A DNA stretch of 16,175 nucleotides, taken from contig SKGZ01000133.1 in NCBI GenBank assembly GCA_007117175.1, positions 1-16,175 on the forward strand, given 5' to 3'. Made by a program: the position numbers and the translations under genes. The stretch is from Bacteriovoracales bacterium (GTDB taxonomy: Bacteria > Bdellovibrionota > Bacteriovoracia > Bacteriovoracales > Bacteriovoracaceae). Shown piece by piece: positions 3 to 16,166 of this stretch. Numbering within the stretch: position 1 is the first letter of the stretch; each line of letters begins with the position of its first letter. The notes under the pieces were generated by a model, which worked only from the letters and a program-made list of their open reading frames with translations, made no database searches and was not told the DNA's origin.

Positions 3-239
3 ACAAGTGTTACTTTAGAGGTGGGACAATTTACTTATCACATTAAGAAGACCACTCCATTGATTTTGGCAATGTACTCTGCCTTTATTTATGGGGTCTA
101 CCGTGCTCCTCAATACGTGATTAGAAAAACAGAGCAGATGGACAAAATACTTGGCCTAGACTCAGAGAGCATCTATAACAAAATTGCCACCCTTAAAAAA
201 AATATCCCTTTCTTCTGCAGCCGCAAACTTAAGAAGTAG
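3..239 (+). CDS. C-terminal part of an unidentified protein, cut by the window start
   Basis: The frame is open from the first bases of the window to a TAG at 237-239, giving 78 residues plus stop. A GTG at 21 exists, but the frame stays open upstream of it and no ribosome binding site precedes it, so this is most likely the tail of a longer gene. Visible are a hydrophobic stretch (LILAMYSAFIYGVY, about residues 20-33) followed by a basic region ending in SRKLKK, which could be a membrane-associated C-terminus. I do not recognise the family. The stop codon lies inside the left arm of a copy of the dispersed 20-nt element, so the gene and the element abut exactly. Confidence 0.6.
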   Translation, partial: TSVTLEVGQFTYHIKKTTPLILAMYSAFIYGVYRAPQYVIRKTEQMDKILGLDSESIYNKIATLKKNIPFFCSRKLKK

Positions 240-256
240 GTACGCCATCCTTTTTT
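236..256 (+). repeat. Dispersed 20-nt element, copy 1 (forward)
   Basis: Contains a perfect core GGTACGCCATCC followed by six T. The left arm reads GTAGG instead of AAAGG and includes the TAG stop of the preceding gene. It sits in the 35-nt gap between the convergent genes 3-239 (+) and 275-577 (-). Confidence 0.9.
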
Positions 257-274
257 CTGGCATGCCTTCACATT

Positions 275-577
275 TTATTCAGTGATTCGAACTCTTTGTA
301 GACTGACAAGATCTGGACGACAAGAGGGAGTGTTGACACGAATGGAGATTTTCATTCCGTTATCGCATTGATAATTTGTGGTATGGTTAAGAAAGCCTAT
401 TTCCCAAGACTGTTCACAAGCAGTTTGAAAACCAGTCTGAATGCCGGCAATGATTTCGTTATTGATCTCTGAAACGGCTTGTTCTATGGATTGTTTCACC
501 TCTTGATCACAATCATTATTAGCAAAGGCACTATGGGCGAAAAGAAATAAACTGAGTATGAATAATAAATTTTTCAT
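275..577 (-). CDS. Small exported four-cysteine protein, paralogue of 1155-1484
   Basis: The product has 100 residues. A signal peptide is clear (MKNLLFILSLFLFAHSAFA, about residues 1-19, AFA/N cleavage), so the mature protein of about 80 residues is probably periplasmic or outside the cell. Start ATG at 577 has AAGGAG 5 nt upstream. Four cysteines at residues 23, 54, 71 and 86 are spaced 31, 17 and 15 apart, exactly as in the protein from 1155-1484. The two also share a C-terminal block: YQCDNGMKISIRV..PSCRPD here and FQCNNDTKISVRL..PFCRPD there, each ending in a basic RVRI/RIRI tail. Two disulphides are an inference. I know no named family for it, and function is unknown. It is 116 nt downstream of 694-1158 and may be transcribed with it or from its own weak promoter. 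Confidence 0.85.
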   Translation of the reverse strand: MKNLLFILSLFLFAHSAFANNDCDQEVKQSIEQAVSEINNEIIAGIQTGFQTACEQSWEIGFLNHTTNYQCDNGMKISIRVNTPSCRPDLVSLQRVRITE

Positions 578-599
578 AAAAACTCCTTACTTTAGCTCT

Positions 600-605
600 A
601 TTCTA
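600..605 (-). promoter_or_regulatory. Possible -10 box for the gene at 275-577
   Basis: On the minus strand this reads TAGAAT, 22 nt before the ATG, leaving room for the AAGGAG site. No convincing -35 box stands at 16-18 nt, so the call is weak. Confidence 0.3.
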
Positions 606-693
606 ACCTTTGTTAAAAAGTAATGCAGAAACTGTGAATTTTTTTAAGCCTGATAAAGCAACTGTCTAAAAAGTGGACACTTTGTGAATTAAA

Positions 694-1158
694 TTAATGG
701 CCAAGGGCCTGACAGAGCTTGAGGGCCGCGGACTTAACAAGAATGAAAAAGCTTTGTTCAGTAGCTCTTTGATAGGCATAATCTTCTGCTAAACCACCAG
801 AGAGACCATTTTGAATAGTTTTTTGAACTGCGGATGTTTGAATTTTATTGGCACACTCAATAGTTGAATTGGAATATCCATATTCAAGTTGCTGGTTATT
901 TTGTGTTGGAAAATGAGTCGTCCTGTTTTTCCATTGGTTCACTTTTTGACAATATTCTACAGTCGCCTGATGAAGATCATCATTAAAAACCTGGTAAGCA
1001 TTTTCAATCTCTTGTTGAGATTTAAGGTGAGAATCAGTGTATTGGATAGCAATGGCGTGAACAGCATGATCAATTTGATCTACACAAATATTCTCTTGAG
1101 CATTGATACCTTGAATGCTAAGGCCAAGTAAGAAAAATGCTAAGCAATGTGGCTTCAC
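694..1158 (-). CDS. Small exported protein, five cysteines, unknown function
   Basis: The product has 154 residues and starts at a GTG (1158-1156) that overlaps the TGA stop of 1155-1484 in a GTGA arrangement, which suggests translational coupling. The N-terminus (MKPHCLAFFLLGLSIQGINA/Q) is a Sec signal peptide with cleavage after about residue 20. Cysteines are at residues 5, 25, 70, 102 and 149; the last four are in the mature protein. The mature part looks mostly helical. It lacks the CRPD block of its two neighbours and is not obviously their homologue. I do not recognise the family. Its position between two paralogous exported proteins on the same strand suggests a shared extracytoplasmic task, which is inference only. 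Confidence 0.8.
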   Translation of the reverse strand: MKPHCLAFFLLGLSIQGINAQENICVDQIDHAVHAIAIQYTDSHLKSQQEIENAYQVFNDDLHQATVEYCQKVNQWKNRTTHFPTQNNQQLEYGYSNSTIECANKIQTSAVQKTIQNGLSGGLAEDYAYQRATEQSFFILVKSAALKLCQALGH

Positions 1159-1484
1159 TTAATAATCCTAATTCGCACGACTTCCACAAAGTCAGGTCTG
1201 CAAAATGGAGACTTTAAGCGCACTGAAATTTTGGTGTCGTTATTACATTGGAAGCGAATACTATGGGTGACAAACACTCTTTCTCTCACAGCTTCACACT
1301 CAATCTTAAACATTTGTTCAATTTTTGAGACAGCTTCAGTTGCTAACTCAAGTCTTTTGGCAGCGGTAGCCTCTCTTCTCTCATCAGCACAATTAAAATT
1401 GTGAGACGGATGACTTACTGCCATGGCGCTGTGATCTAGTAGAGTTAAGGTGGTGAGTGTCATTAAAGCTAGTAAAAATTTCAT
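1155..1484 (-). CDS. Small exported four-cysteine protein, paralogue of 275-577
   Basis: I start it at the ATG at 1484, giving 109 residues. A longer frame reaches 1586, but the ATG at 1484 has AAGGAAA 5 nt upstream and opens a signal peptide (MKFLLALMTLTTLTLLDHSA, cleavage near AMA/V), while the upstream extension looks non-coding. Cysteines at residues 32, 63, 80 and 95 repeat the 31/17/15 spacing of the 275-577 product. The block from about residue 78 (FQCNNDTKISVRL, then PFCRPDFVEVVRIRI) is its conserved match. It is the first gene of the leftward group; its stop overlaps the start of 694-1158 by 4 nt. Function unknown; an exported protein stabilised by disulphides is the best description. 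Confidence 0.85.
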   Translation of the reverse strand: MKFLLALMTLTTLTLLDHSAMAVSHPSHNFNCADERREATAAKRLELATEAVSKIEQMFKIECEAVRERVFVTHSIRFQCNNDTKISVRLKSPFCRPDFVEVVRIRIIK

Positions 1485-1573
1485 AGCATTTCCTTTTGTT
1501 GAGAATTGAATATAGTTGAGCATCTTTACCGTGTATTGCAAAGAAAAACAAGTAGCCCTGTCATTTTTATAGG

Positions 1574-1593
1574 AAAAGTACGCCATTCTTTTT
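1574..1593 (+). repeat. Dispersed 20-nt element, copy 2 (forward, degenerate)
   Basis: Reads AAAAGTACGCCATTCTTTTT, with two changes in the 12-nt core compared with the consensus. It lies between the divergent genes 1155-1484 (-) and 1619-2809 (+), 25 nt before the ATG of the latter. Confidence 0.75.
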
Positions 1594-1618
1594 AAGATAG
1601 CTAAAAAAAGGAGTTGTC

Positions 1619-2809
1619 ATGAGTGGCTTACATTTTAAAATGCTTATTTTTTCATTTTTTTTATTATCCTGTAGTTCCAATGATAATCGAACTGAATCTT
1701 CTGGTGTAGGTCAAGGCTCCAATGCCTTAAGTGCTGGAGCTGCTAGTTTAAATTCAGCCGGTAGCTTATCTGGGATTTCCACTGCATTAAGTTCTAGTTT
1801 TGCCCTAATGGGCGGTGGAGGGTCTCAGCAAAGTTCTTTGGATGCTCTTTGCACAACTACTGGCATGCCCTGGGATAGTGACACTGAAGCTGAGATGCAA
1901 GCAAGTCATAGTGATTATTCTTTTTCATTTTTTCACTGCCAGACCTCGCTTGCTGGGGGAGGACCTGATTCAGCTTATGGGGCAATGTCCATCGCTCAGA
2001 TGTTTTTATGTTCGATAGAGAGCTCACTGCCGAATTTGCAATATAATGGTGAAGAGATTGATGGTGGCAGCTTTACTATTGATCAGCAATGCCTCAATGA
2101 TTCTTTACTGCAAGATGAAGAGATGAGTGAAATGGCAGGAATGCCCTTGGGCCCCAATTTAAAGATTACTGCTTCAACCATGCCTGCCAGTTCAGGTTGG
2201 GATCGTAAAATTGAAGTGACTGGAATTCACCTTGATGTGGATGACCCCAGCGAGCTTATGAATTTTACCACCTATTTTAGAAGAGATAATAATCTTATTG
2301 CTTTTAAATTTGTGGAGGTGAATGATCCCTTAGGAACCCCAGATATAAGCGCTTGGTCTTTTACAGTGGATAAGGCAAGTCAGCGTTTACACTTTGAAAC
2401 CTTTGCTCCGAGATTTGGTCGCCACATTCGCTTTTTAGCAGAAGGCAGTATGAATAACTCAGGTGTTTTCACTTCTATTGATAAAATTGCAGGTGCATAC
2501 GCCGAAGGTGATTCTAGTTCCTTAACTAAAGGGGCGACTATTATAGGCAGTGCTAGCAATAATTTGCGAGGTCGCCGTTTCTATGTGAATGGTGGCTTTA
2601 ATGCAGAGAATGAATGCCTTTTGATTACATCTGGTAATTGTTCTGCAGTGGAGTGGGGATTCTTAGAGTTTAATGAATCACAAGCTGAAAACTTCTATGA
2701 TGTTACTGACCTGTCTGATTTTATTAATGAAGAAGGCGAGAGCTTTCACCCACTTTCTTTTACAGCGATTGATGATAATAAGATGCCTTTAACGGATAGT
2801 TTTAGATAA
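1619..2809 (+). CDS. Outer-membrane-type lipoprotein of unknown function
   Basis: The product has 396 residues. The start is well supported by AAGGAG 6 nt before the ATG. The N-terminus carries a hydrophobic segment and a lipobox (FFLLSC, Cys18), and the next residue is Ser, which favours transport to the outer membrane. Residues of about 19-75 are Ser/Gly/Ala/Asn-rich and low-complexity, probably a flexible linker, followed by a folded domain with scattered Cys. A middle region (YFRRDNNLIAFKF, then a stretch ending RHIRFLAEG) resembles the equivalent part of the lipoprotein at 14996-16111 (YFKNRDNQANIVSL, then RMRIAEEG), so the two may share an architecture. No catalytic motif is seen. The coiled-coil gene follows 123 nt downstream. 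Confidence 0.85.
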   Translation: MSGLHFKMLIFSFFLLSCSSNDNRTESSGVGQGSNALSAGAASLNSAGSLSGISTALSSSFALMGGGGSQQSSLDALCTTTGMPWDSDTEAEMQASHSDYSFSFFHCQTSLAGGGPDSAYGAMSIAQMFLCSIESSLPNLQYNGEEIDGGSFTIDQQCLNDSLLQDEEMSEMAGMPLGPNLKITASTMPASSGWDRKIEVTGIHLDVDDPSELMNFTTYFRRDNNLIAFKFVEVNDPLGTPDISAWSFTVDKASQRLHFETFAPRFGRHIRFLAEGSMNNSGVFTSIDKIAGAYAEGDSSSLTKGATIIGSASNNLRGRRFYVNGGFNAENECLLITSGNCSAVEWGFLEFNESQAENFYDVTDLSDFINEEGESFHPLSFTAIDDNKMPLTDSFR

Positions 2810-2810
2810 A

Positions 2811-2840
2811 AAAATGGCGCTGCTTTGACACCAGCAGCGC
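2811..2840 (-). terminator. Hairpin with a T-tract on the minus strand only
   Basis: GCGCTGCT (2817-2824) pairs with AGCAGCGC (2833-2840) over an 8-nt loop. On the + strand it is preceded by an A run and followed by no T run; on the minus strand it reads stem, then CATTTTTTT, the classical intrinsic terminator layout. It stands directly after the stop at 2809 of a + strand gene, so it would stop antisense transcription rather than that gene. It may still act as a stabilising 3' hairpin on the + strand. Confidence 0.6.
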
Positions 2841-2932
2841 AGCTTAAGTGCCAGTTTGTCCCTAAAATTCTTTTTCTTTGACGAGAGATAGTGAAATTCA
2901 TTATTTGTTAGATAAGAAAAAGGAGTTCAGGT

Positions 2933-5900
2933 ATGAACTGGTATTTTAAAATAAGAGCGAGTGCTCTGCTCTTCACATTGGTGACAATTCACTCTGTGGC
3001 AAAATTGCCAGATGAGATTAACCATCCTCCTTATTTTCAAAGTTATCAAGAAAAGTCACGTCAGACCGAACAGGCTAAACAGCAATTAGAGCTTGAACAG
3101 AGAAGATTAGCTGAAATTAAAAAAGAGATTAAGAATTTACAGGATCAAATTGAATCAGCTCATCAACAGATAAGTCAAAATGAAAGATCGAATAGTCGAT
3201 CAGAGAGTGAGATTCACAGACTAAATAGAGAGGCAGATCAACAAGAAAGAAGAATAGAGAGCCTTAATGGGCAGTATCATCAATTAGAAAGAGATAAAAA
3301 CTCTGCAGAATCATCATTAAGAAGAGCTCAGTCTCAATTGGATCAAATTCGCTCAGAGCGCAATCGCGTCCAGGGTAGAATTGCCCCCTTAGAAAACCAA
3401 TTACAGTCTAGACGAAATCAATTAGCGAGGACACAAAATGATTTAAGTGGAGCGCAAAGGCAACGCTCTGATCTGCAATCTCAAATCAATAGGGCTAATT
3501 CACAAATTCAAACACTCAATTCCAGAATACGAGAAGGTGAATCACAAGTTCGCAACGTGAATGCCCAAATTCCTCGCCTGCAAGATCAGCGTCGATCTAA
3601 GGAAAGTGAGCGGGTCGCCGAACAAAGAAAGATTGAGCCATTGAATAATCGTGTTCGTCAACAACAACGAGTGGTGGAAGATTTGCGCAAGAGCGGAGCT
3701 GATAATAGTGAAATTCAGGCTGCCCAACGCCGCTTAAACGCCATTATTGGCACTAGAGATAATACTCAGAGTAGGGTGAGTGCACTAACTCGCGAAGTGA
3801 GAAATCTTGATCAACAAATTCAGAGTCAACAAAGAAGAGCACAGGAATTAAACGGACAAATTCAACAGGCAAGACGAGAGATCGCCAGTGCAGAAAGTCA
3901 GTTAACTCAACTACGCAATCAATCTCGAACTGTTTCTCAGAATATTGATTCTCTGCAGAGGCAAATCTCACAAATTGAGGGCCAAATTCGCTCAACTCAA
4001 AATCAGTTGTCACCACTAAGACGAGAGATGGATTCAGTGATGTCGCAGCTTTCGCAGGCTGAAAGCACGGTTCAAAGTCGTAATAGAGCAGTGGGACAGA
4101 TTGTGCAACAGATGAATAGCACTAATGATCAAATACGATCAGCCAATCAACAATTGGCTCAATTAGATCGCCAGGCGCAAAGTGAAGTGAATGCGATCAA
4201 TAGAAGAAATTCTGAAATTGAAAGTCTTTATCAAGCCATTGACGCCTCTATAGAGAGAAAATCACAGCAGATAGCTGCCCAAGCTGAACAAGAAAACACA
4301 GTGGCAACAGCTGATGATCAATATCAACAACATGTTGAAATCCGTCAGCAATTATACGCTGAGTATGAGAAGCGTCATCAACTTTATAGGCGATATATTG
4401 CCGAAGCAGAGCAATTAGGAGTTTCTCAAATCAATGGCGCTTTCCAATTAGGTGAAGACCATGGAGAAGAATTAGCTGAGTTACTAGCAAGACAAATCGG
4501 TTCTCAGATGGGTGCAAAACTAGGGCAAGCAGAAGCAATCTTGTGGGGATATGTCAGAGGTGAAGTTCAAGGTTATGATGAGGGTTATCAACAAGGTAAT
4601 CAAAGTGATGTCATTATTGAACAAGCAACCGCGAAGGCTACTAAGCAGGCATTGAAGGCAGCAACACAAAGAGCGCAAAATAAAGATAAGCCTCAATATT
4701 TTGAGCAAAAACTACAAGAACGTATCAAGCAGGCAATTAAACAAAGTAGCGAAATTGCCCAGAATGAGAGTTCCGGCAAAAGTCAGCAGGTACAATTATC
4801 ACAAGAAACGCAAGAGAATCATTGGACAATTTCACTGCAAAGTGAGTTGAATTATGAGCAAGAAGACTTCAGAGGTAAAGGGATAGCACCCATCACTGAA
4901 GCAGAGTTAAATAGCAGCCTCGAGTTGGCGACGTCCTTAGATGAAAAAATTCAAAAATTAATTGAGCAGCAAAAAAGGATTAAACTGGATAGTCAGCGAC
5001 TGGGGCAAGCCAGTGAAGTTTATCAAGTTCCCCAAAGAATGCCTCATTTTAGTCTTGACTGTCATGATGTCTATAAAGGAGTTGAAGATTTCATATCAGC
5101 CTGTCGAATGGCGGCAGTGAGCGGCTTTAGACAGCGATTCGTGCACAGCTCGCGAAGAAAACTTACAGATCTTTATCCCCAGCAATATTTAGAGGTTCGT
5201 CAAAAATCAAGATTAGCCAGTCAAGCAAAAGACTATGAAAAGCATTACCAAGTGGCTTATGAGGTTGCCTTTCAAGAGGGTGAGCAGGCGGGAGAAGAGT
5301 TAAACTATGAAAGAACCTATGGCGAAGTTTATAATATGCGCTACCCTCAGTTCTTAGGCGAGCAAAGAGAAATTGCTCGAAAAGAGGCAACTCAACAAGT
5401 GGAGCAAATTCTAAAAGAAAAGGCTATTGTGACTGTAGAGAAAATAGAATTGAGCTCTGATCTGAGTGGAGGAGAACAAGGTTATCTATCAATTGTATTA
5501 AATAATATCTCCGAGGTGGATGATGATAGCCTTAAAAAAATAGAGATAGAGTCTAATCGCTTTTTAGTTTTTGATCAAAAAAGAGTTTACTTGGATAAAG
5601 TGAAAGCTGGCTCACGAAGGACTTTTAAAATTGCGTATAAGGCTGCTAGTGATGCACAGACATCGCAAGAATTGAAGGTGAAAATCAAGGCAAGTTTGCC
5701 AGGTGACTATTATCAAGTAGAAAGAATTGAAAGCGCTCAAGCAACAGAGGTGGCTGCCTTTAACCCCCGCAGTGCCATTGAGCTGAGTTATAAAAAGCGT
5801 CCCAGAGTACGCCATGTGGGATTAATTCGGGCCCGCCATCATGTTGAGATCAACCTTGCTCCACTTTTTGAAGATCTTGCCGAAGGCTTGCAATTAGAAT

Positions 5901-6112
5901 TAGAAGTGATAGGTGAGGCTGCTGAGTCAGTGAGACTTGTGCAAGGAAAAGCAGAAATTCCCGGCGTCCTAAAAGTTGATCAACCGGTGTCGGCACGTCT
6001 TTCTTATTCATTTGATCGCCAGTTGCGATCCCAGTCGGTCAATTTCCGCCTCAATGTTTTTTATAAGCAAAGACTGATTCAAACCGAAGATTTTACAGTG
6101 AATCCTCGTTAA
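2933..6112 (+). CDS. Very large exported coiled-coil protein with a C-terminal beta-rich region
   Basis: The product has 1059 residues, with AAGGAG 8 nt before the ATG. A signal peptide (MNWYFKIRASALLFTLVTIHSVA, residues 1-23) makes it exported. Residues of about 35-495 form a nearly unbroken Gln/Arg/Ser/Asn-rich coiled coil, like the arm of an SMC or Rad50 protein. There is no Walker A or signature motif, so it is not an ATPase of that type. Around 496-560 there are glycine-spaced repeats (GYVRGEVQGYDEGYQQG), and a similar Tyr/Gly pattern recurs at about 770-812. Two Cys (710, 724) lie 14 apart. The last 230 residues (about 830-1059) look beta-rich, like an adhesin or Ig-like domain. A structural fibre, tether or periplasmic spacer is plausible. 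There is no transmembrane segment after the signal peptide. A dispersed element follows the stop by 8 nt. Confidence 0.9.
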   Translation: MNWYFKIRASALLFTLVTIHSVAKLPDEINHPPYFQSYQEKSRQTEQAKQQLELEQRRLAEIKKEIKNLQDQIESAHQQISQNERSNSRSESEIHRLNREADQQERRIESLNGQYHQLERDKNSAESSLRRAQSQLDQIRSERNRVQGRIAPLENQLQSRRNQLARTQNDLSGAQRQRSDLQSQINRANSQIQTLNSRIREGESQVRNVNAQIPRLQDQRRSKESERVAEQRKIEPLNNRVRQQQRVVEDLRKSGADNSEIQAAQRRLNAIIGTRDNTQSRVSALTREVRNLDQQIQSQQRRAQELNGQIQQARREIASAESQLTQLRNQSRTVSQNIDSLQRQISQIEGQIRSTQNQLSPLRREMDSVMSQLSQAESTVQSRNRAVGQIVQQMNSTNDQIRSANQQLAQLDRQAQSEVNAINRRNSEIESLYQAIDASIERKSQQIAAQAEQENTVATADDQYQQHVEIRQQLYAEYEKRHQLYRRYIAEAEQLGVSQINGAFQLGEDHGEELAELLARQIGSQMGAKLGQAEAILWGYVRGEVQGYDEGYQQGNQSDVIIEQATAKATKQALKAATQRAQNKDKPQYFEQKLQERIKQAIKQSSEIAQNESSGKSQQVQLSQETQENHWTISLQSELNYEQEDFRGKGIAPITEAELNSSLELATSLDEKIQKLIEQQKRIKLDSQRLGQASEVYQVPQRMPHFSLDCHDVYKGVEDFISACRMAAVSGFRQRFVHSSRRKLTDLYPQQYLEVRQKSRLASQAKDYEKHYQVAYEVAFQEGEQAGEELNYERTYGEVYNMRYPQFLGEQREIARKEATQQVEQILKEKAIVTVEKIELSSDLSGGEQGYLSIVLNNISEVDDDSLKKIEIESNRFLVFDQKRVYLDKVKAGSRRTFKIAYKAASDAQTSQELKVKIKASLPGDYYQVERIESAQATEVAAFNPRSAIELSYKKRPRVRHVGLIRARHHVEINLAPLFEDLAEGLQLELEVIGEAAESVRLVQGKAEIPGVLKVDQPVSARLSYSFDRQLRSQSVNFRLNVFYKQRLIQTEDFTVNPR

Positions 6113-6120
6113 AGGTCGTA

Positions 6121-6135
6121 AAAGGTACGCCATCC
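6121..6135 (+). repeat. Dispersed element, copy 3 (forward, lacking the T tail)
   Basis: AAAGGTACGCCATCC is intact but is followed by GAATACC rather than T residues, so the right arm is missing. AAAGGT is repeated 10 bp upstream (6111-6116), overlapping the stop codon of the coiled-coil gene. Confidence 0.85.
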
Positions 6136-6191
6136 GAATACCGCTAACTTAAGGATTTTCTTTAATAGTTTTAGATATTTATAAAATAGAC

Positions 6192-6221
6192 AAAAAAAAT
6201 GCGGCCATGCGTAATGGCCGC
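6192..6221 (-). terminator. Intrinsic terminator for leftward transcription
   Basis: GCGGCCAT (6201-6208) and ATGGCCGC (6214-6221) form a perfect 8-bp stem with a 5-nt loop. On the minus strand the stem is followed by A and eight T. It would stop leftward transcripts coming from 6863-7918 through the transposase remnant before they run into the coiled-coil gene. Confidence 0.7.
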
Positions 6222-6278
6222 CCGTGATTTCCTTGATAGGTTTAATTGTGACTAAACAAACAACCTCAGGAGATCAAT

Positions 6279-6854
6279 ATGTACTCTACTCGTTTTAACC
6301 TCAATAGTCAGAACATTCTTTATCAAATTTAATCCCTAAACGTCTTATTGAATACATATGCTCTGACACAGCTCGCTTTAGACTCTATGACCCATCAAGC
6401 ACCTTGTTTTGCTTACTTTACCAGGTGATTAATAATTGCAGCATGAAGGCGGCGATACTGACTCTTAATTTCCACCGGATGAATCAGAATAAAAAATTAG
6501 CTTCCATGAATACAAGCGCTCTTACTAAGGCCAAGAAACGCCTTAATGAGAACAAACTCAAATACATTGCATCTCAATTGGGGGCAGAGGTTGATAAAAA
6601 ATATTCAACAAGGCTATCCCAAGTTGAGATTATTGGCATTATTTAGTGCAAGCTCTGCTCCACCAAAGTCAGGATCGCTGGCAGTTTGCGAGGCCATGGG
6701 AATTGCCGAGCAGTATTTAGTGATACAAGGAAAAGGTAAAAAGGCACAGGCGAAGGTGAGGATCTGTCACTTTGCAGGAGTAGAGATTGTGACTGCATGT
6801 CGCGCTTACCCAGCACATATTAGAAACGGTGGAACAGCGGGATATTGTGATTAA
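6279..6854 (+). pseudogene. Decayed IS4-type transposase
   Basis: Three frames in succession carry pieces of one transposase. ATG at 6279 follows AGGAG and gives 17 residues (MYSTRFNLNSQNILYQI) before a stop. Shifting frame near 6326 continues as NLIPKRLIEYICSD and, further on, SMNTSALTKAKKRLNENKL, typical of the N-terminal domain of IS4/IS5-like DDE transposases (SxNTSAYxKARKRL pattern), up to a stop at 6646. A second shift gives GYPKLRLLALFSASSA, which resembles the segment after the first catalytic Asp. The DGTT-like catalytic block expected between these pieces is absent, so there is an internal deletion. The rest, to 6854, is not recognisable, and no terminal inverted repeats could be found. 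The element is dead and fills the 750-nt gap 6113-6862. Confidence 0.65.
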
Positions 6855-6862
6855 TCTACTGA

Positions 6863-7918
6863 TTAGCGCATGGAGCCCATGCTTGACTGGCTAGGTTGAG
6901 CCTCTCTAAGGCGTGGATGATCAATCACAGTTTTGAATTCATAGCAATGATCACAGCCACTTAAATTAGCACTTGTTTTTTCGATAAATGTGCCCACATG
7001 AATTCGTACTCGTTCTCCTGATTTTCTCGGAAGCAGTTCTTCTAGAACATTGAAGATATCAATTGGTTGAAGTTGACTGTCATCGGTAAGAAAAACAGTT
7101 TGTGAAATGAGTCCACGGCGATAGGCCATCAGGTTCTGTTCATCCAGAATATTCATGCCTTTATCCGTGGCTTCATAAATATAATCAAAAAGAGGGTTCG
7201 TAATAGGGCCAAAAACTTTATCAAGAACATTGACGCCATATCTTTTATCAATTTCATTAAAAAATCCATCAATGCCCAGCCAAATCAGTATATCGGCTCC
7301 TATCAGAGTAGGGATAACGGCCTTGTTAAGCTTCGTTAGTCCATGTTTGGCCAGCAAAGCTTTGATTCTAACTGTAGCTGCTGTGTGTAGGGTGGCTAGA
7401 CCAAGGTGGGAAAGTGTCAGTAGTGGAAATCCAACTGCTACGCTCACTTGGCCAGCTCTGCGTGCTGTCATGGCGTCGTGGGCAGCGGCCTCTGATTCCT
7501 TTAGCTGATCAATTTGAAAGTAATCACCGTTATGAAGATCAACACAGCTCTCATTGCGGTAATGAATAATATCCATGGTGTTAAAGCCTTGGTAGGAACA
7601 ATGACTAATTTTCACAAAATCAGGATATTCTGGGTGGGCAATGTACTTTAATGCCGTCAGTGGAACTTCATTGCGAAATTGATCCAGCTCCTGATAGAGT
7701 TCAGCTTGCAGAGGTTCAGTGGATTGGGCAATAAGTTCATCCACGCTTCGATCGGCAAAAACCTTTAAGATGGTGGAATGATTTTGATAAATCGGGTGAC
7801 TTACAATTGTTATAGTCGCTAACTCCAAGGGCATTTGCTGTGCGTGAGCTGACAGGGATGAGTTAAGAGTACTTAAGAAACTAAAAGAAATCATCATTAC
7901 TATTTTTAATATTTTCAT
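6863..7918 (-). CDS. Exported CxxCY protein, larger of two tandem paralogues
   Basis: The product has 351 residues with a signal peptide (hydrophobic MMISFSFL core, cleavage near AHA/Q at about residue 27). Blocks shared with the protein from 7982-8788 are YPDFVKISHCSYQGF, RNESCVDLHNGDYFQ, a C-terminal LEELLPRKSGE and a terminal CDHCYEF. Four cysteines are conserved between the two, the last two as CxxCY. One or two hydrophobic segments lie mid-protein (about residues 155-178 and 205-225) and could be membrane helices or a buried hairpin. CxxC could bind a metal or be redox-active, but no thioredoxin or haem context is visible. The ATG at 7918 has no Shine-Dalgarno sequence and lies 7 nt after an extended -10 box, so the mRNA is probably leaderless. 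Family not recognised. Confidence 0.85.
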   Translation of the reverse strand: MKILKIVMMISFSFLSTLNSSLSAHAQQMPLELATITIVSHPIYQNHSTILKVFADRSVDELIAQSTEPLQAELYQELDQFRNEVPLTALKYIAHPEYPDFVKISHCSYQGFNTMDIIHYRNESCVDLHNGDYFQIDQLKESEAAAHDAMTARRAGQVSVAVGFPLLTLSHLGLATLHTAATVRIKALLAKHGLTKLNKAVIPTLIGADILIWLGIDGFFNEIDKRYGVNVLDKVFGPITNPLFDYIYEATDKGMNILDEQNLMAYRRGLISQTVFLTDDSQLQPIDIFNVLEELLPRKSGERVRIHVGTFIEKTSANLSGCDHCYEFKTVIDHPRLREAQPSQSSMGSMR

Positions 7919-7925
7919 AAGTTCA

Positions 7926-7981: not shown

Positions 7982-8788
7982 CTAATCTTTAAACAGTGGA
8001 CGGTAAGCGCGAAGGTAGTAGCAGCGTGAGCAGTTAAAAAGCCTAGCATCCTGAGCAATAATTTGTAGACCATGAGCAGTTGAACGAACCTCACCTGCTC
8101 GCGCCGGCAGCAGTTCAAGATAGTTTGCAAAGATCTGAGCAGGTTCAACATGATCAATAAGAGTAATCTGTGGAGCAATGTCTATTTGATCATCAGGCGT
8201 TTGGCGGCTATGAGCACTGAGCGGGCCAGTATCCTGTGCTTTGGCAATGATCTGTTCTAGATTGAAATCAGTTAAAACATCCACAATGATGGACTTGCCG
8301 ACAAGCTTGGCCTGAAATCGAAAGCTTTTGACATTGGCACCAGCGGCCTTAGCAAGACGATAAAACCGACGATAATAAAGAAAGCCAACCAGTGAAGCGG
8401 CTCCAATAATGGACCCTCCTCTGACTTGCCTTCGACTGCGAGCAGATTGATTGGCCAGTTGTTCAAAGTTAATGAGATTTTGGAGTTGGTAGTAAGCACC
8501 TGCATGTAAGTCTAAGCATCCGGCGTTACGAAAAAGCATTTGTTCAAAGTCTTGATAGTAGCACAGACTTATCTTCACAAAATCTGGATAACGATGATGG
8601 GAAATGATCTTGAGTGTAGCAATGCTATCATCAGGTTGAGGTTCTCTTAAAAAATCAAAGGAGAGCTCATAATCACTCTGTTTCATGATGATGACTTCTG
8701 GAATTTCTAGCTTGCCATGGTGATCTGCCCAAGGATGAGAGAGTCCCATCATAGGTAATAAAGCTAAGAAGAGAAATAGTTTTTTCAT
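7982..8788 (-). CDS. Exported CxxCY protein, smaller of two tandem paralogues
   Basis: I start it at the ATG at 8788 (268 residues), because it opens a clean signal peptide (MKKLFLFLALLPMMGLSHPW). A TTG three codons upstream is the alternative. Blocks shared with 6863-7918 are YPDFVKISLCYYQDF, RNAGCLDLHAGAYYQ, YLELLPARAGE and a terminal CSRCYYL, with the same four cysteines. After about residue 120 come an Arg-rich stretch and a hydrophobic segment (IIGAASLVGFLYYRRF), perhaps one membrane helix. The region between the shared blocks is shorter and diverged, so the duplication is old. There is no Shine-Dalgarno site; an extended -10 box lies 9 nt before the ATG. Function unknown. Confidence 0.85.
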   Translation of the reverse strand: MKKLFLFLALLPMMGLSHPWADHHGKLEIPEVIIMKQSDYELSFDFLREPQPDDSIATLKIISHHRYPDFVKISLCYYQDFEQMLFRNAGCLDLHAGAYYQLQNLINFEQLANQSARSRRQVRGGSIIGAASLVGFLYYRRFYRLAKAAGANVKSFRFQAKLVGKSIIVDVLTDFNLEQIIAKAQDTGPLSAHSRQTPDDQIDIAPQITLIDHVEPAQIFANYLELLPARAGEVRSTAHGLQIIAQDARLFNCSRCYYLRAYRPLFKD

Positions 8789-8797
8789 CGCAATCAA

Positions 8798-8806
8798 ATC
8801 TTAGCA
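8798..8806 (-). promoter_or_regulatory. Extended -10 promoter giving a leaderless mRNA for 7982-8788
   Basis: The minus strand reads TGCTAAGAT, ending 9 nt before the chosen ATG at 8788. The arrangement matches that of the paralogous gene at 7918. Confidence 0.45.
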
Positions 8807-8822
8807 GGCTCAGTGGGGTGAA

Positions 8823-8859: not shown

Positions 8860-8863
8860 CAAT

Positions 8864-9565: not shown

Positions 9566-9583
9566 TTTTTCATCTCCGTTTTA

Positions 9584-9602
9584 AAAGGTACGCCATCCTT
9601 TT
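9584..9602 (+). repeat. Dispersed 20-nt element, copy 4 (forward)
   Basis: AAAGG, the core and four T, then ATTTTAG. It begins 18 nt from the ATG at 9565 and ends 3 nt from the stop codon at 9606, between two leftward genes. Read in the direction of those genes it is the reverse form. Confidence 0.9.
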
Positions 9603-9605
9603 ATT

Positions 9606-10484: not shown

Positions 10485-10528
10485 AATGTTGACCTCTAAT
10501 CTTTGTGATGATTCACTTTTGAATGCAC

Positions 10529-10556
10529 ATTACACTCGCCTTGATAGTCCAGTCAA
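10529..10556 (-). promoter_or_regulatory. Sigma70-type promoter for 9606-10484
   Basis: On the minus strand TTGACT (10556-10551), 16 nt spacer, TGTAAT (10534-10529). Each box matches 5 of 6 consensus bases. The predicted leader is about 38 nt and contains the AGAGGT site. Confidence 0.55.
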
Positions 10557-10591
10557 AGACAAAGGATGAGGTTTGTAAAAGATACACTCTT

Positions 10592-10621
10592 TTGAGTTTG
10601 ATTATTTTTTTGCCCTATAAT
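10592..10621 (+). promoter_or_regulatory. Promoter with consensus -10, leaderless start for 10629
   Basis: TTGAGT (10592-10597), 18-nt spacer, perfect TATAAT (10616-10621). Only 7 nt separate the -10 from the ATG at 10629, so transcription should begin at or within a base of the start codon. Confidence 0.6.
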
Positions 10622-10628
10622 AGAGACT

Positions 10629-11060
10629 ATGAGTTTGAAAATTTTATCAACTGTTTTGGTGAGCAGCGTCGCATTGTCAGGTCAGTGGTTGAATGCATCG
10701 GAGATCAATTTCTCCAGTGCAAACTCCTCAAAAGTAAGTTGTTCAATGGTCTTGAGAAAGATGGTGACTCTTAATGATCTCAGTTATGCCAAGTTAACTG
10801 GTTTTTTTAGAGATCAGTATATGGAGAAACTAGGAACTCAGTCTTATTCACTGTGGATGGTGAATCCCAAAGGATATCAACTCATTCGAGGTCAATTTGA
10901 ACTTTACTTAAAGTATCGTTATCCTCAAGATCCCAAGAAGATTAAAGAAATAAAAGAGCAGGTTCGATTTCCTAGTTTGATCGCCTTGATGGATTTGCAA
11001 GAAGGAGAAAAGGAGTTTATTCATATGATGAACTGGGCGATGAGTTTGGATGCACCTTAG
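10629..11060 (+). CDS. Exported protein of unknown function, possibly the 5' half of a frameshifted gene
   Basis: The product has 143 residues with a signal peptide (MSLKILSTVLVSSVALSGQW, cleavage near LNA/S). One mature cysteine is seen (VSCSM). The rest is helical and basic, with no known domain. No Shine-Dalgarno sequence exists, because TATAAT ends 7 nt before the ATG; a leaderless mRNA is inferred. The last 11 nt overlap the frame 11050-11436, which is unusually long for translational coupling and has no good ribosome site. Together the two frames would make one exported protein of about 270 residues, so a one-base indel near 11040-11058 is possible. Confidence 0.7.
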   Translation: MSLKILSTVLVSSVALSGQWLNASEINFSSANSSKVSCSMVLRKMVTLNDLSYAKLTGFFRDQYMEKLGTQSYSLWMVNPKGYQLIRGQFELYLKYRYPQDPKKIKEIKEQVRFPSLIALMDLQEGEKEFIHMMNWAMSLDAP

Positions 11061-11436
11061 AGATCGAATCTACGCCTTGGGTCTTGATCTTTATGCTGAG
11101 TCAAAAAATACTGCAATCTTAGCCGAAAGAATGCAGAATGTTTTTGAAAGTGAAATCGCAAGAAGACTAGGACCATTAGCAAGCTCTATGAATATTCAAG
11201 TGAGTTATAAAATTGAACGAGCTCGTAAGTTCTTAGTGGAAAAGAAGAAACGGGTGGAGCGCGATCGCTTAGTGATCGAGGTCGGTTCCCCGCAGCGAGA
11301 GAGCATTGATAGCCGGCAAAGCACACAGTCTCCAGTTGACCTTGCCCCGTCATCATCAACACTGACGGCTGAGCAAAGTAAGACCAAGAAAAAAATGATC
11401 TCTTTCTTAATGGATATGACTGAGGGAAAGCCCTAA
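11050..11436 (+). CDS. Overlapping downstream frame, helical and basic; separate gene or 3' half of a frameshifted one
   Basis: The frame encodes 128 residues from the ATG at 11050, with an in-frame TGA 9 nt upstream of that ATG. It starts inside the last codons of 10629-11060 and has no convincing ribosome site or signal peptide, unlike almost every neighbour. The N-terminal 60 residues (LRDRIYALGLDLYAESKNTA onward) look helical; then comes a Lys/Arg-rich stretch (EKKKRVERDR) and a Ser/Thr/Gln-rich linker before a short helical tail. The amino-acid pattern is credible as protein. Either it is coupled to 10629-11060 or both are pieces of one gene. A copy of the dispersed element follows 9 nt after the stop. 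Confidence 0.6.
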   Translation: MHLRDRIYALGLDLYAESKNTAILAERMQNVFESEIARRLGPLASSMNIQVSYKIERARKFLVEKKKRVERDRLVIEVGSPQRESIDSRQSTQSPVDLAPSSSTLTAEQSKTKKKMISFLMDMTEGKP

Positions 11437-11445
11437 AGGAGCCCT

Positions 11446-11465
11446 AAAGGTACGCCATCCTTTTT
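11446..11465 (+). repeat. Dispersed 20-nt element, copy 5 (forward, perfect)
   Basis: AAAGGTACGCCATCCTTTTT, 9 nt after the stop at 11436. CCCTAAAGG occurs twice in tandem (11431-11439 and 11442-11450), the second copy forming the left arm. Confidence 0.95.
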
Positions 11466-11562
11466 CAAATTTCGCGGCCCAATCCGATAGCTAATGTATA
11501 AAAACCACGGGTTTGACTAAAATCTTCATAATTGAAAATTGGCTTTAAGCAGAAATGGGCTG

Positions 11563-11582
11563 AAAAAGGATGGCGTACCTTT
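11563..11582 (-). repeat. Dispersed 20-nt element, copy 6 (reverse, perfect)
   Basis: AAAAAGGATGGCGTACCTTT on the + strand, 64 nt upstream of the ugd start. With copy 5 it forms a perfect inverted repeat around a 97-nt spacer. Confidence 0.95.
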
Positions 11583-11599
11583 CATAAGGCTGCTAGAAT
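11571..11599 (+). promoter_or_regulatory. Candidate promoter for ugd with an extended -10
   Basis: TAGAAT (11594-11599) preceded by TGC gives an extended -10. At a 17-nt spacing the -35 position would be TGGCGT, inside element copy 6. The -35 match is poor for sigma70; the extended -10 carries the call. Confidence 0.4.
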
Positions 11600-11646
11600 A
11601 CATCACAAAAAACATAAGAGAAGAACAAAAGGAAAAAGGCAAGAGC

Positions 11647-13017: not shown

Positions 13018-13026
13018 TTAGGGCGA

Positions 13027-13046
13027 AAAGGTACGCCATCCTTTTT
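13027..13046 (+). repeat. Dispersed 20-nt element, copy 7 (forward, perfect)
   Basis: AAAGGTACGCCATCCTTTTT, 9 nt after the ugd stop codon; left half of an inverted pair. Confidence 0.95.
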
Positions 13047-13068
13047 CTGATTATTACCAATAATTTCG

Positions 13069-13088
13069 AAAAAGGATGGCGTACCTTT
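13069..13088 (-). repeat. Dispersed 20-nt element, copy 8 (reverse, perfect)
   Basis: AAAAAGGATGGCGTACCTTT, 25 nt from the stop codon of 13114-13509, right half of the inverted pair. Confidence 0.95.
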
Positions 13089-13113
13089 CCTTGTACTTTG
13101 TATTAATCAGAGC

Positions 13114-13509
13114 TTATCGCAATTGGGTACATACGATATTATTGCGTCTGCAGTGCATCTCGTGATTCTCTGCTAAGCAGGCGTTACGAGCTTGAGAGCT
13201 AGCCATGGCTTGAGTGTCTGCTTCGGCAGCGTATCTTGTACTAAAAGCAAAAAGTTCGCACTCAAAAAGACTTTCATTAGCAGGAATGTCTTGTTGTGAA
13301 AGATTATAGACTTGAATTTGTAAGTCGCGAACAGCTTGCTCTAGTCGAAGTGTTCTTTGAATCAGTTCTGTGTGATTGGAATTATCAGATCCAATGCGAA
13401 TACCAATAGTGGTCCGACCTTCACCAATAGTGATATAACCCCCGCCTTGGCTTTGTGCGTAAGCAGCTTGTGTCAAAACCATTGTCAACATTAATAATAA
13501 ACCTTTCAT
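13114..13509 (-). CDS. Small exported protein with a four-cysteine C-terminal domain
   Basis: I start at the ATG at 13509 (131 residues), since it has AAGGA 7 nt upstream and opens a signal peptide (MKGLLLMLTMVLTQAAYA/Q). The extension to 13587 is upstream leader. Residues 20-40 are Gly/Ile-rich (GGGYITIGEGRTTIGIRIG). Residues 46-75 have heptad-like spacing and could form a short coiled coil. Residues 84-131 carry Cys84, Cys111, Cys120 and Cys127 in the pattern CELFAFS..., ACLAENHEMHCRR...IVC, which resembles small extracytoplasmic disulphide domains in which an Ala-rich helix separates the first two cysteines. No function is known. A near-consensus promoter sits at 13577-13605; the leader contains a TTAGGC/GCCTAA hairpin (13527-13542) just before the ribosome site. 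Confidence 0.85.
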   Translation of the reverse strand: MKGLLLMLTMVLTQAAYAQSQGGGYITIGEGRTTIGIRIGSDNSNHTELIQRTLRLEQAVRDLQIQVYNLSQQDIPANESLFECELFAFSTRYAAEADTQAMASSQARNACLAENHEMHCRRNNIVCTQLR

Positions 13510-13576
13510 TGAAAATCCTTTGTTTTTTAGGCTATTGCCTAATGAATTGTTATTTGCTTTGCTCAAGCGTGGGCTG

Positions 13577-13605
13577 CTTATATCCACTTAAAAATTACAT
13601 GTCAA
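13577..13605 (-). promoter_or_regulatory. Strong sigma70-type promoter for 13114-13509
   Basis: On the minus strand TTGACA (13605-13600), 17-nt spacer, TATAAG (13582-13577): 6/6 and 5/6 consensus. The predicted leader is about 60 nt. Element copy 9 begins 12 nt upstream of the -35. Confidence 0.75.
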
Positions 13606-13617
13606 TGTATTTTTTAC

Positions 13618-13637
13618 AAAAAGGATGGCGTACGTTT
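13618..13637 (-). repeat. Dispersed 20-nt element, copy 9 (reverse, one mismatch)
   Basis: AAAAAGGATGGCGTACGTTT: one core base differs (ACG for ACC). It lies between divergent genes, 40 nt before the ATG at 13678. Confidence 0.88.
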
Positions 13638-13677
13638 GAGGTTGTGTTAAATTGTGAATCAATAAGGAGATTGGTTT

Positions 13678-14202
13678 ATGAAGAAGATGATTTGTCTGTT
13701 TTGGACGGTGCCCCTTTTTATGATGAGTGCTTGTATTACCGAGGTGACGGCACCCTTTTGTGATGCTAGCAATATGAAGGAGATAGCCGGCTTTGCTGGC
13801 GAGTATTATTTTGCGATGGATGATATAGATATAGTTATTGAGAGCAAGGGCAATGGTTTCTACCAATTTTTCTCCTACGATGATGATGAAGAAGACGGGC
13901 CGATGAGCTTTAAAGTGTGCCAGGTGAATTCACGCCTCATTATTGAAATTCCTAACGCAAGTGAGCTCTTGGCCATTCAATCAGCAGGTCAAGCTCAGTT
14001 GTTTGAACTTAATATCAATTCACAAACTGGAGATTTTTCCATGTACACCCTAGTGGCAGATCAGCAATCAATGATTAACGATGGTGTTTCTTATACCAGC
14101 GTAGCTGATGACCATGCGGTTGTGATGAATGAACAAATGAGTGCAACTCAACTGCTTGGCTACTTGGCCAAAAGATTCCAGATGAATTTTACAAAAATTT
14201 AA
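13678..14202 (+). CDS. Small acidic lipoprotein of unknown function
   Basis: The product has 174 residues. AAGGAG lies 8 nt before the ATG. The N-terminus MKKMICLFWTVPLFMMSAC fits a lipobox (MSAC, Cys19) and is followed by Ile, so it should be a lipid-anchored protein of the cell envelope. The mature part has an acidic loop (DDDEEDG, about residue 65) and two further Cys (APFCDA and FKVCQV) that could form a disulphide. It alternates short strands (FYQFFSY, RLIIEI, LFELNI), which suggests a small beta-sandwich or barrel. No known family is recognised. It is bracketed by element copies 9 and 10 in inverted orientation, like ugd and 14996-16111. Confidence 0.85.
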   Translation: MKKMICLFWTVPLFMMSACITEVTAPFCDASNMKEIAGFAGEYYFAMDDIDIVIESKGNGFYQFFSYDDDEEDGPMSFKVCQVNSRLIIEIPNASELLAIQSAGQAQLFELNINSQTGDFSMYTLVADQQSMINDGVSYTSVADDHAVVMNEQMSATQLLGYLAKRFQMNFTKI

Positions 14203-14207
14203 TAGTC

Positions 14208-14228
14208 AAAGGTACGCCATCCTTTTTT
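14208..14228 (+). repeat. Dispersed 20-nt element, copy 10 (forward, perfect)
   Basis: AAAGGTACGCCATCCTTTTT plus one more T, 5 nt after the stop codon at 14202 and 22 nt before the end of the decayed gene on the other strand. Confidence 0.95.
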
Positions 14229-14250
14229 GTCTTTGGCATTATTGTCAGAA

Positions 14251-14840
14251 TTAGTAATTGAGCATTTGATTTAAGACCTGATAGAGCTTAAGTCTGAGCT
14301 GAATATCATTTTGTATTAAGATCTCAATATCTTCAAGGGTTAATATTTCTAGTAGCTTAATTGCCACTATCATGGTTTCATCGGCTTCATCCGTTTTCTT
14401 CGCTTCAACTACTTCATCCACTTCATCCGCTTCATCCGCTTCATTCACTTTATGCTGTTGTGGGAAAAAGGCAGTTCTTAGTTCTCTGGGCCCTTGCAAG
14501 AGCTCTAATCTTTTTTCTATATCATGTAGGGAAATCCCTGCACTGACTCCCGCGGTGATGATAGCCGCCCAGCGGCCGCCATTGAGCATGGCCCTGGTCC
14601 GAGAGATTTGACGACTGGTGTGCTTGTTTGGCCCTGTGCCATTTGTTCTAGGCGATGAGACTGTATCAGTTCATTGAATTGGTGGAAAAGCTGCATAACC
14701 TCATGCACAGAGGGGATGTTGACCACTGCCTGCTGATGGGCAGGTCGGTATTGGGCAAGTGCTGTGAGCGGGGTCATAGGGGAGATGGCCAGCAGTAATG
14801 TCAGTGAGTAGATTGAATGGCGTAGATTCTTTTTGTTTAT
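14251..14840 (-). pseudogene. Decayed gene for an exported protein: frameshift and lost start codon
   Basis: Two overlapping frames look like one protein. The upstream part reads as a signal peptide (KKNLRHS, then SLTLLLAISPMTPLTALA/Q) and continues to about 14620. The sequence then makes sense only in another frame (SRTRAMLNGGRWAAIITAG) and runs to the stop at 14251. A one-base indel near 14605-14625 would explain this. No ATG, GTG or TTG opens the first frame upstream of the signal peptide; the natural start position (MNKK-like) is ATA at 14840, so the start may also be mutated. The C-terminal part has a nine-base tandem repeat giving an Ala-Asp-Glu run. A sequencing error could explain the indel but not the start. 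Alternatively 14251-14589 is a short gene of its own. Confidence 0.6.
14377..14448. repeat. Nine-base tandem repeat within the decayed gene
   Basis: Eight units of 9 bp, the best being TTCATCCGC in tandem, with diverged outer units. On the minus strand they encode repeated ADE-like triplets (ADE, VDE, TDE). The repeat keeps the reading frame, so copy changes would vary length, not frame. Confidence 0.75.
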
Positions 14841-14849
14841 AACAGTTTG

Positions 14850-14858
14850 ATTCTAGCA
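14850..14858 (-). promoter_or_regulatory. Extended -10 promoter of the decayed gene
   Basis: The minus strand reads TGCTAGAAT, identical to the extended -10 upstream of ugd. It lies 9 nt before the presumed original start at 14840, again a leaderless layout. Confidence 0.4.
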
Positions 14859-14923
14859 TAGAAGTTATTGTTTGATTCTTACGAGGGTAAGAGTTACAGA
14901 GGGGGAAGGCAGGAAGGGGTGCG

Positions 14924-14944
14924 AAAAAGGATGGCGTACCTTTT
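14924..14944 (-). repeat. Dispersed 20-nt element, copy 11 (reverse, perfect)
   Basis: AAAAAGGATGGCGTACCTTT plus one T, between the decayed gene (-) and 14996-16111 (+), 51 nt before the ATG of the latter. Confidence 0.95.
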
Positions 14945-14960
14945 GAGAATTGTGTAGATT
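14932..14960 (+). promoter_or_regulatory. Candidate promoter for 14996-16111, overlapping the element
   Basis: TAGATT (14955-14960) lies 17 nt after TGGCGT (14932-14937) of element copy 11, the same spacing as at ugd. The -35 fits sigma70 poorly. Confidence 0.3.
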
Positions 14961-14995
14961 AGAGGAACAAAAAAAGACGCAAACACGGAGGTTTT

Positions 14996-16111
14996 ATGAT
15001 TGCGAAAAATGGATTTGGGCCTATAGGGGCATTTACTCTAGGATTACTCTTTTTCTTTTCCTGTAGTTCTTCTAATAATTCTGCGCCAGCTGGCAATGTG
15101 ATGACTCAGCTGGAATCACAGGCAGTGGGGTATATGAGTGACTCCTTGCCTTCGGGAAATTCTTCCAGTGCTTCGCTGCTAGGTCTCAATGGCCAATTGG
15201 ATGAAGAGCACAATCGGGGGCAGAATGCTTATCATAGCTTACTTTCCGATGGAACTTTTTTGGATACTCGCACCAATTTAAAAAGACCAGCTCGAACCGC
15301 AGAAGCTGACACTAGTATTAGTCAATATATGACTGATTTGCTGGACTCTGATTATACTGATGGCAATGAGGATGAGCCCAATTCTCCCACCGTTTTCTTT
15401 CGCTTCCAGCAAGAGTTGGAGGTTTTAAAAATTCTAGCCACACAGCTGACATGGAGTAATGGAGCGCCTCCTGCGGGAACTCACACTTTAAATGTGGAAG
15501 GTAACGATGTGCAGGCAACCATTAGCTTAGTCACTGGTAATGCTAATTTTGATGTTTATATTGAGGTGGCAGCATTTGATGTGAAGGTCTATTTTAAAAA
15601 TCGTGACAATCAGGCCAATATTGTCAGTTTGGAAGAAAAAGGTGGCAGTGATTTTAGTTACTCACGCTTTTTTTGGAATCGCTCCACTGGCGCTATGAGC
15701 TATGACTATATTTCCACTGGGGATAATTATGAGGTAAGCCGGATGCGTATCGCCGAAGAAGGTGGACAGGCTAGGTTATTAAGCGTTTTGCCCTCTCAGG
15801 GGGGAGTGAATCGTATGTACATTCAAGCTCCTCAGGGAGGAGACTCTGAGACGTTTGATTTGAGCTTTGAAAGAACGGGTGATAATGCTGTGACGATTGT
15901 GAATTATTGCGCCAGTGGTACAGAGAACTCTGCCGCTACCCATGTTTGCGCTGGAGCAGGGTCGAATCTGGGTGCTGATATTGCTGGTAGTATTATTGCT
16001 GAAGTCAGTGACCCTGCAGAGTTGAGAAGTGATTTGTTTGGTGCTGATGATGCTGCTATGGGGGATGTCACTGCCCCTGATGATGCAGCTTTTTTGGACA
16101 GCTTGTTGTAG
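14996..16111 (+). CDS. Outer-membrane-type lipoprotein of unknown function
   Basis: The product has 371 residues. CGGAGG lies 5 nt before the ATG. A hydrophobic segment ends in a lipobox-like FFFSC (Cys23) followed by Ser/Asn-rich residues, which points to an outer-membrane lipoprotein. Residues of about 24-70 are low-complexity. A folded region follows with beta-type stretches (THTLNVEGNDVQATISLV, FDVYIEVAAFDVKVYF). The segment around YFKNRDNQ to RMRIAEEG resembles the corresponding part of the lipoprotein at 1619-2809, suggesting a shared, undescribed domain. Two Cys near the C-terminus (NYCASG, HVCAGAG) may pair. The tail is Asp/Ala-rich. Copies 11 and 12 of the dispersed element bracket the gene in inverted orientation. 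Confidence 0.85.
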   Translation: MIAKNGFGPIGAFTLGLLFFFSCSSSNNSAPAGNVMTQLESQAVGYMSDSLPSGNSSSASLLGLNGQLDEEHNRGQNAYHSLLSDGTFLDTRTNLKRPARTAEADTSISQYMTDLLDSDYTDGNEDEPNSPTVFFRFQQELEVLKILATQLTWSNGAPPAGTHTLNVEGNDVQATISLVTGNANFDVYIEVAAFDVKVYFKNRDNQANIVSLEEKGGSDFSYSRFFWNRSTGAMSYDYISTGDNYEVSRMRIAEEGGQARLLSVLPSQGGVNRMYIQAPQGGDSETFDLSFERTGDNAVTIVNYCASGTENSAATHVCAGAGSNLGADIAGSIIAEVSDPAELRSDLFGADDAAMGDVTAPDDAAFLDSLL

Positions 16112-16129
16112 TTGGCTGATTTCGTTTTT

Positions 16130-16151
16130 AGATAGTAGGTAGATAGTAGGT
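16130..16151 (+). repeat. Perfect 11-bp tandem duplication at element copy 12
   Basis: AGATAGTAGGT occurs twice without a gap (16130-16140, 16141-16151); the second unit runs into the core of the element. Confidence 0.85.
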
Positions 16152-16166
16152 ACGCCATCCTTTTTT
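16146..16166 (+). repeat. Dispersed 20-nt element, copy 12 (forward)
   Basis: GTAGG left arm as in copy 1, perfect core, six T. It starts 35 nt after the stop at 16111. Confidence 0.92.

Follow-up and report, generated by a model that had tools for sequence, protein, structure and literature searches.

What is the 20-nucleotide element that recurs twelve times between the genes of a single contig of a Bacteriovoracales bacterium (SKGZ01000133.1, 16,175 nucleotides, all of which was analysed and is referred to here as the window)? The initial annotation of this stretch compared the element above all with DNA uptake sequences and gave a repetitive extragenic palindromic (REP)-like repeat as an alternative. 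Our results support that alternative and leave the uptake analogy unsupported. We consider it quite probable that the element is this genome's own dialect of a REP- or REPIN-like, non-autonomous mobile repeat, and likely that a REP-associated tyrosine transposase (RAYT), a single-strand-DNA transposase, moves it; it is not a classical GTAG REP. This reading rests on palindromic relatives in other genera, which flank RAYT genes in some of the genomes, and on the inverted pairs, the position at the 3' ends of genes and an insertion sequence (IS) inserted in copies.

In the window, a scan with the 20-mer at up to three mismatches recovered 11 of the 12 copies originally listed (shuffle mean, 0.01), and the twelfth, at 6121, proved genuine, its T-tail having been replaced by an IS remnant. 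The exact 12-mer GGTACGCCATCC was counted ten times, as first reported, at 239, 6124, 9587, 11449, 13030, 14211 and 16149 on the plus strand and at 11568, 13074 and 14929 on the minus strand. The 20-mer scan read together with open reading frames places plus-strand copies at 236..255, overlapping the TAG stop codon of the left-hand gene, and at 1574..1593, a variant (AAAAGTACGCCATTCTTTTT) with divergent genes on either side. Further plus-strand copies lie at 6121..6135, truncated after GTACGCCATCC by the IS remnant; at 9584..9603, flanked by two minus-strand genes; at 11446..11465, with the edge of the 20-mer 10 nt past a stop codon; at 13027..13046, behind a UDP-glucose dehydrogenase gene; at 14208..14227, directly past a stop codon; and at 16146..16165, behind a gene ending at 16111. 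Minus-strand copies occupy 11563..11582 (the inverted partner of the 11446 copy, 118 bp apart), 13069..13088 (the right half of the inverted pair begun at 13027), 13618..13637 (one mismatch, between divergent genes) and 14924..14943 (upstream of the gene at 14996). Apart from the stop codon overlapped at 236, the bodies of the credible window genes are free of copies. No Rfam family matched in the window.

The element is not restricted to the window. The whole assembly (1.86 Mb in 301 contigs, 85% complete) holds 53 copies of the 18-mer at up to two mismatches, 32 of them exact, and none of the reversed control; a second pattern gave 65 matches (control, 2) and revealed the class GTACGCCGTTC. 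We fetched 40 of the 301 contigs (30 with matches and 10 without, two of the latter masked) in addition to the window, and GTACGCC.T.C occurs 65 times in this set; the masked contigs, L076 and L077, were excluded from the counts of gene placement, of AAAGG-N8-CCTTT centres, and of stop codons, folding and flanks. Copies are strongly clustered, with 12 of about 65, or about a fifth, in the window's 16-kb contig (Poisson P ~1e-12), so that the density of one per 1.3 kb noted at the outset holds locally and not genome-wide. The intergenic placement likewise stands within the window, but in the rest of the genome a simple gene finder predicts genes that overlap 11 of 65 copies, several of them at gene 3' ends.

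Placement is also strand-biased. A stop codon lies no more than 30 nt before the element on the element's own strand at 28 of 65 copies, compared with 113 of 4000 random intergenic sites, and on the opposite strand at 9 of 65; there are also copies at the start of a gene or between two divergent ones. REPs have been reported near gene 3' ends (PMC3733652). AAAGG-N8-CCTTT occurs 33 times in the fetched contigs and 32 of these share the same centre, in agreement with the early remark that the centre is conserved beyond the needs of a plain terminator; with a different centre in just one of the 33, a terminator with a free loop was rejected. A coding origin was also rejected: copies near tgt, dnaA and atpC can be read as opposite-strand C-terminal codons, yet they lie directly behind the neighbour's stop codon. 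Behind tgt, dnaA and one further gene, three copies (L041 5355 and 6710, L067 10403) have about 50 bp in common outside the element, an imperfect palindrome TTCTCA...GTGATAATG...TGAGAA that is perhaps a longer form of it.

The sequence itself is private to this genome, whereas its plan is not. The own 18-mer is at background level in relatives, its exact form gave three stray single matches, one genome each, among 84,980 species, and its absence from IMG/VR led us to reject a phage origin. Palindromes of the general plan AAAGGTAC-N4-TACCTTT are found in other genera: AAAGGTACNNNNTACCTTT occurs without mismatch in 80 of 368 genomes of the phylum (reversed control non-zero in 13, at most two each) and not at all in the own genome, whose element, AAAGGTAC-GCCAT-CCTTT, is the general plan minus one base. 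The search of relatives with the own 18-mer met six copies of AAAGGTACGGCATACTTT in genome G131, where two pattern searches around AAAGGTACGGCATACCTTT gave 20+18 or 19+18 copies. In genome G030, 18+24 copies were found with one mismatch allowed and 44 match the general plan exactly, those listed reading AAAGGTACCGCGTACCTTT; G062 has 16+17 dialect copies, and the general-plan search found 22 in G169 and about 25 in G175. With a palindromic plan these counts register both strands, and the dialect sequences are known from the first places listed per genome, that is, from part of the copies. Several members of genus g25 carry a few copies of AAAGGTACCGCATACCTTT, and palindromes built to this plan, single-copy and with differing centres, occur in several genomes. 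The repeat is longer in the genus of G169, where most of the nine copies listed (L270-L277) carry a conserved tail, GGGGGTGCGGCG, behind the palindrome AAAAGGTACGCCGTACCTTTT. A literature text search with the core returned only unrelated sequences among the matches listed. These results indicate that the element is a short palindromic, intergenic, many-copy and genome-specific repeat, as REPs are, with related dialects spread over many genera and, it appears, a recent amplification of the own one (an identical 18-mer makes up 32 of its 53 copies).

A RAYT-type transposase, raised in the initial annotation as a possible companion of the element, does lie beside its counterparts in several genomes. 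The transposase domain Y1_Tnp (PF01797) is carried by 86 of the 129 genomes of the family and by 19 of the 20 selected; because it is so widespread its presence says little, and the position of the gene says more. In G030, the RAYT gene at 17188-17823 of contig C140 has the multi-copy dialect 11 bp behind it and 86 bp before it. The gene on G062:C3 has it 17 bp behind and 107 bp before, and in G137 the dialect overlaps the end of the genome's only RAYT gene (contig C4), with a one-base variant 641 bp upstream. In these three genomes, then, a RAYT is flanked by the genome's own multi-copy repeat in inverted orientation, which is the published REPtron layout of a RAYT between two inverted REPs (PMC2817692). 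Same-plan motifs accompany RAYT genes in G333 (overlapping and at 56 bp), G264 (104 bp behind and about 150 bp before the gene) and G130 (overlapping the gene), and at five of these six loci the copies on the two sides are inverted. Ten G137 copies sit in two stretches of one contig (C4; L268, L269), one of them around the sole RAYT, as if dispersal were local.

Overall, the motif lies no more than 150 bp from the RAYT gene at 6 of 39 loci. The rough expectation is 0.16 (P ~2e-8), calculated for 40 loci with guessed counts of 1 for twelve and a motif slightly narrower than the counted one; the P value is too small because copies cluster, and the genomes were picked partly for element richness. 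The 39 loci are those parsed from 50 by an open-reading-frame filter; the 11 unparsed include G062:C4, with a copy about 150 bp from the RAYT match, the parsed genes were not individually checked (in G218 the parsed gene is the neighbour of the hidden Markov model match) and one G062 RAYT (C2:9871) lies outside the loci fetched. The RAYT proteins score above the cut-off for PF01797 and match NCBIfam REP_Tyr_transpos at E values of 3e-16 to 6e-22, all under the curated cut-off; the own RAYT matches the solved TnpArep structure 4er8 (E 0.0017). H61-x-H63 (HUH), Y120, N124 and P125 are invariant in 11 of 11 aligned proteins, which fits the HUH and Y---NP motifs that define RAYTs (PMC6006769). The same survey reports no REPs beside RAYT subclasses 2.1 and 2.3 (PMC6006769). 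A tree of 37 proteins revealed no single RAYT clade owning the element, and the label count was uninformative, few rows being labelled. Literature searches pairing RAYT or REP with the names Bdellovibrio or Bdellovibrionota brought up nothing relevant.

Folding distinguishes the dialects. The repeat of G030 and G131, which often extends to GCCAAAAGGTAC...TACCTTTTGGC, is a strong palindrome that folds at -17.2 and -14.8 kcal/mol, respectively. The palindrome of the own dialect is imperfect; single own copies, without perfect palindromy and one base shorter than the plan, fold at -2.9 kcal/mol, so that only inverted pairs fold strongly, two of them at -32.5 and -37.0 kcal/mol (the latter is the window pair 13027/13069). 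A single copy therefore lacks the stable G+C-rich hairpin that, with a T-run, characterizes each intrinsic terminator. Neighbours up to 150 bp apart stand in element-then-inverse order in 7 of 12 own cases, 6 of 6 in G030 and 2 of 2 in G062, where the orientation of the element was our choice; the sole neighbour pair of G131 has the opposite order. Among 64 own copies there are seven inverted neighbour pairs within 150 bp, so the own copies are not mostly doublets, as REPINs are.

Some copies also carry an asymmetric mark. At 15 of 64 own copies, compared with 41 of 3301 matched intergenic sites, the left flank (the GGTACG side) recurs as an exact repeat of 9 bp or more with a lag of 6-32 bp; right-side duplication was seen at 1 of 63 copies at the end of the T-run and at 4 of 61 at the core's right edge. 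The whole duplicated unit, 9-12 bp long, is present in twelve own copies, and in ten of these the right breakpoint is compatible with a site after the first G of GTACGCC. Two 11-bp tandem left-flank duplications, both also reported by Tandem Repeats Finder, lie on the plus strand of the window, at 11429..11450, reaching the edge of copy 11446, and at 16129..16152, running into the edge of copy 16146. Longer lags (25, 27 and 31 bp) take in the element itself. At the dnaA copy the stop codon of the gene falls in the first unit, which makes the second the added one. G131 has left-side duplications at 6 of 20 places (21 rows, one locus entering twice) and none on the right, and G030, when turned to GGTACGCGGTACC, has 5 of 33 on the left and 1 on the right; in both genomes an arm of the repeat is itself part of the duplicated unit, and both cases are weaker for it.

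Replication slippage is not favoured as the source of these duplications, the microhomology being only 0-3 bp. They would be the product of a staggered cut that is filled in and then sealed, or of strand transfer involving two cuts 9-12 bp apart, and they may record the insertion reaction. We met no description of one-sided flank duplications in the REP/RAYT literature searched, parts of which are represented by excerpts, and this is no proof of their absence there. That the phylum harbours a whole class of GTAG-less REPs with RAYTs, and that these spread by a reaction in which new copies gain a duplication of about 8-13 bp of flank, always on the same side, is a tentative and rather doubtful extension; if true, the history of REP dispersal could be read from the scars, which would set it apart from the IS200/IS605 reaction. 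To our knowledge, that reaction makes no larger target duplications.

The IS remnant that truncates the copy at 6121 is IS4-like and is placed at 6136..6862 on the plus strand, with a provisional right end. The only other match in the genome is a partial copy on contig C206, and both abut GTACGCCATCC of an element copy at the same base. The IS4 profile scores weakly on the remnant (E 0.058) and well, though still under the cut-off, on its relative in G061 (E 3e-30); relatives were found in 5 of the 129 genomes of the family, one of them the own genome, and not in G030 or G131. In G061 (L084, L087), two related IS4-like ends read by eye lie 12 nt from AAAAAGGTGC, as if targeting terminator- or REP-like sites. 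ISRm22, of the IS4 family, sits in REPs of Sinorhizobium at one fixed base (PMC1525189).

These observations can be set against other explanations. A fixed, non-mobile family of transcription terminators at gene ends, kept by descent or gene conversion, would account for the strand-biased placement past stop codons, the T-tail, the strong folding of inverted pairs and the single-copy palindromes with varied centres in several genomes. We nevertheless regard it as unlikely: single own copies fold weakly, the centre is conserved, multi-copy dialects vary between genera and adjoin RAYT genes, and some copies are at gene starts or between divergent genes. It is more improbable still that the element is mainly an insertion target of the IS4-like element and the flank duplications its excision scars. 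The shared insertion base, the G061 ends and the 9-12 bp units, which are within the length range of IS4-family target duplications, speak for it; yet the genome has just two broken IS copies, G030 and G131 have duplications without IS relatives, the IS breaks the core on the right while duplications are on the left, and the multiplication of the element is left unexplained.

A DNA uptake sequence or the binding site of a chromosome-structuring protein, suggested by a short, conserved, mostly intergenic sequence in inverted pairs, is the explanation to which we give almost no credence. About 65 copies in 1.86 Mb are few and clustered, as opposed to hundreds spread, the sequence changes completely between the genera of a single family, and the multi-copy dialect sits beside a transposase gene in three genomes; on copy number, clustering and genus-specific sequence, with competence genes not searched, the uptake sequence was set aside. 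The case counsels caution against taking inverted intergenic repeats for uptake signals.

The REP-like, RAYT-moved reading has its own difficulties. The 5' GT[AG]G hairpin foot is missing, the left flank being AAAG or similar in the copies listed; single own copies fold weakly; and no mobility has been observed. At 33 of 39 RAYT loci there is no such motif within 150 bp, the flanks in G333, G264 and G130 carry motifs of the plan that may or may not be the multi-copy ones, and dialect-rich G131 has no RAYT at E 1e-3 in an assembly that is 86% complete. The only RAYT found in the own genome (C16:2124-2789) shares an 8.1-kb contig with four element copies, the nearest 593 bp off with another gene between, and another at 1061 bp. 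The own-genome link between RAYT and element is thus only suggestive, and we give even chances to this gene being the mover there. Under the REP-like reading, a RAYT would recognize the hairpin in single-stranded DNA and cut beside the element, which would allow single copies or inverted pairs to re-insert; copies would persist at gene 3' ends, where they may do least harm, and the one-sided 9-12 bp duplications could be the scars left when the cut at the edge of the element was staggered or displaced.

The genes around the copies include two pairs of related neighbours, so the window is rich in lineage-specific duplicated genes. The minus-strand genes at 275-577 and 1155-1484 encode small, probably secreted proteins with 36% identity over 90 aa (E 8e-21), and those at 6863-7918 and 7982-8797, also on the minus strand, small, probably secreted proteins with 26% identity over 299 columns (E 2e-19) and no Pfam match. 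A 1059-aa coiled-coil-like protein (2933-6112, plus strand) has only weak ATG16/Tropomyosin-type Pfam matches. At 14377-14444, a 9-bp tandem repeat, TTCATCCGC, in 7.6 copies lies inside an open frame and would encode an acidic DEADEV-type repeat.

Among known systems, REPs and REPtrons come closest, as short palindromic, intergenic, multi-copy and genome-specific repeats (PMC2817692, PMC6006769, PMC8266576) that lie near gene 3' ends (PMC3733652), and the dialects share with them inverted doublets and, in some genomes, a RAYT between two inverted copies. They differ in lacking the GT[AG]G foot, in numbering tens and not hundreds of copies, in their one-sided flank duplications and in an own-genome RAYT that is not directly flanked. 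TIRYTs and TIRtrons are similar in that RAYT-like genes are flanked by non-GTAG inverted repeats, some in moderately abundant families; theirs share GGGGWSAS in many cases, whereas the repeats here read AAAGGTAC...GTACCTTT and are themselves palindromes (PMC3733652). The inverted pairs with their long hairpin resemble REPINs, but the own copies are mostly singlets and Pseudomonas fluorescens SBW25 is dominated by doublets (PMC3116915). The IS4-like element in a repeat at one fixed base recalls ISRm22 in Sinorhizobium REPs (PMC1525189), here with just two broken copies seen.

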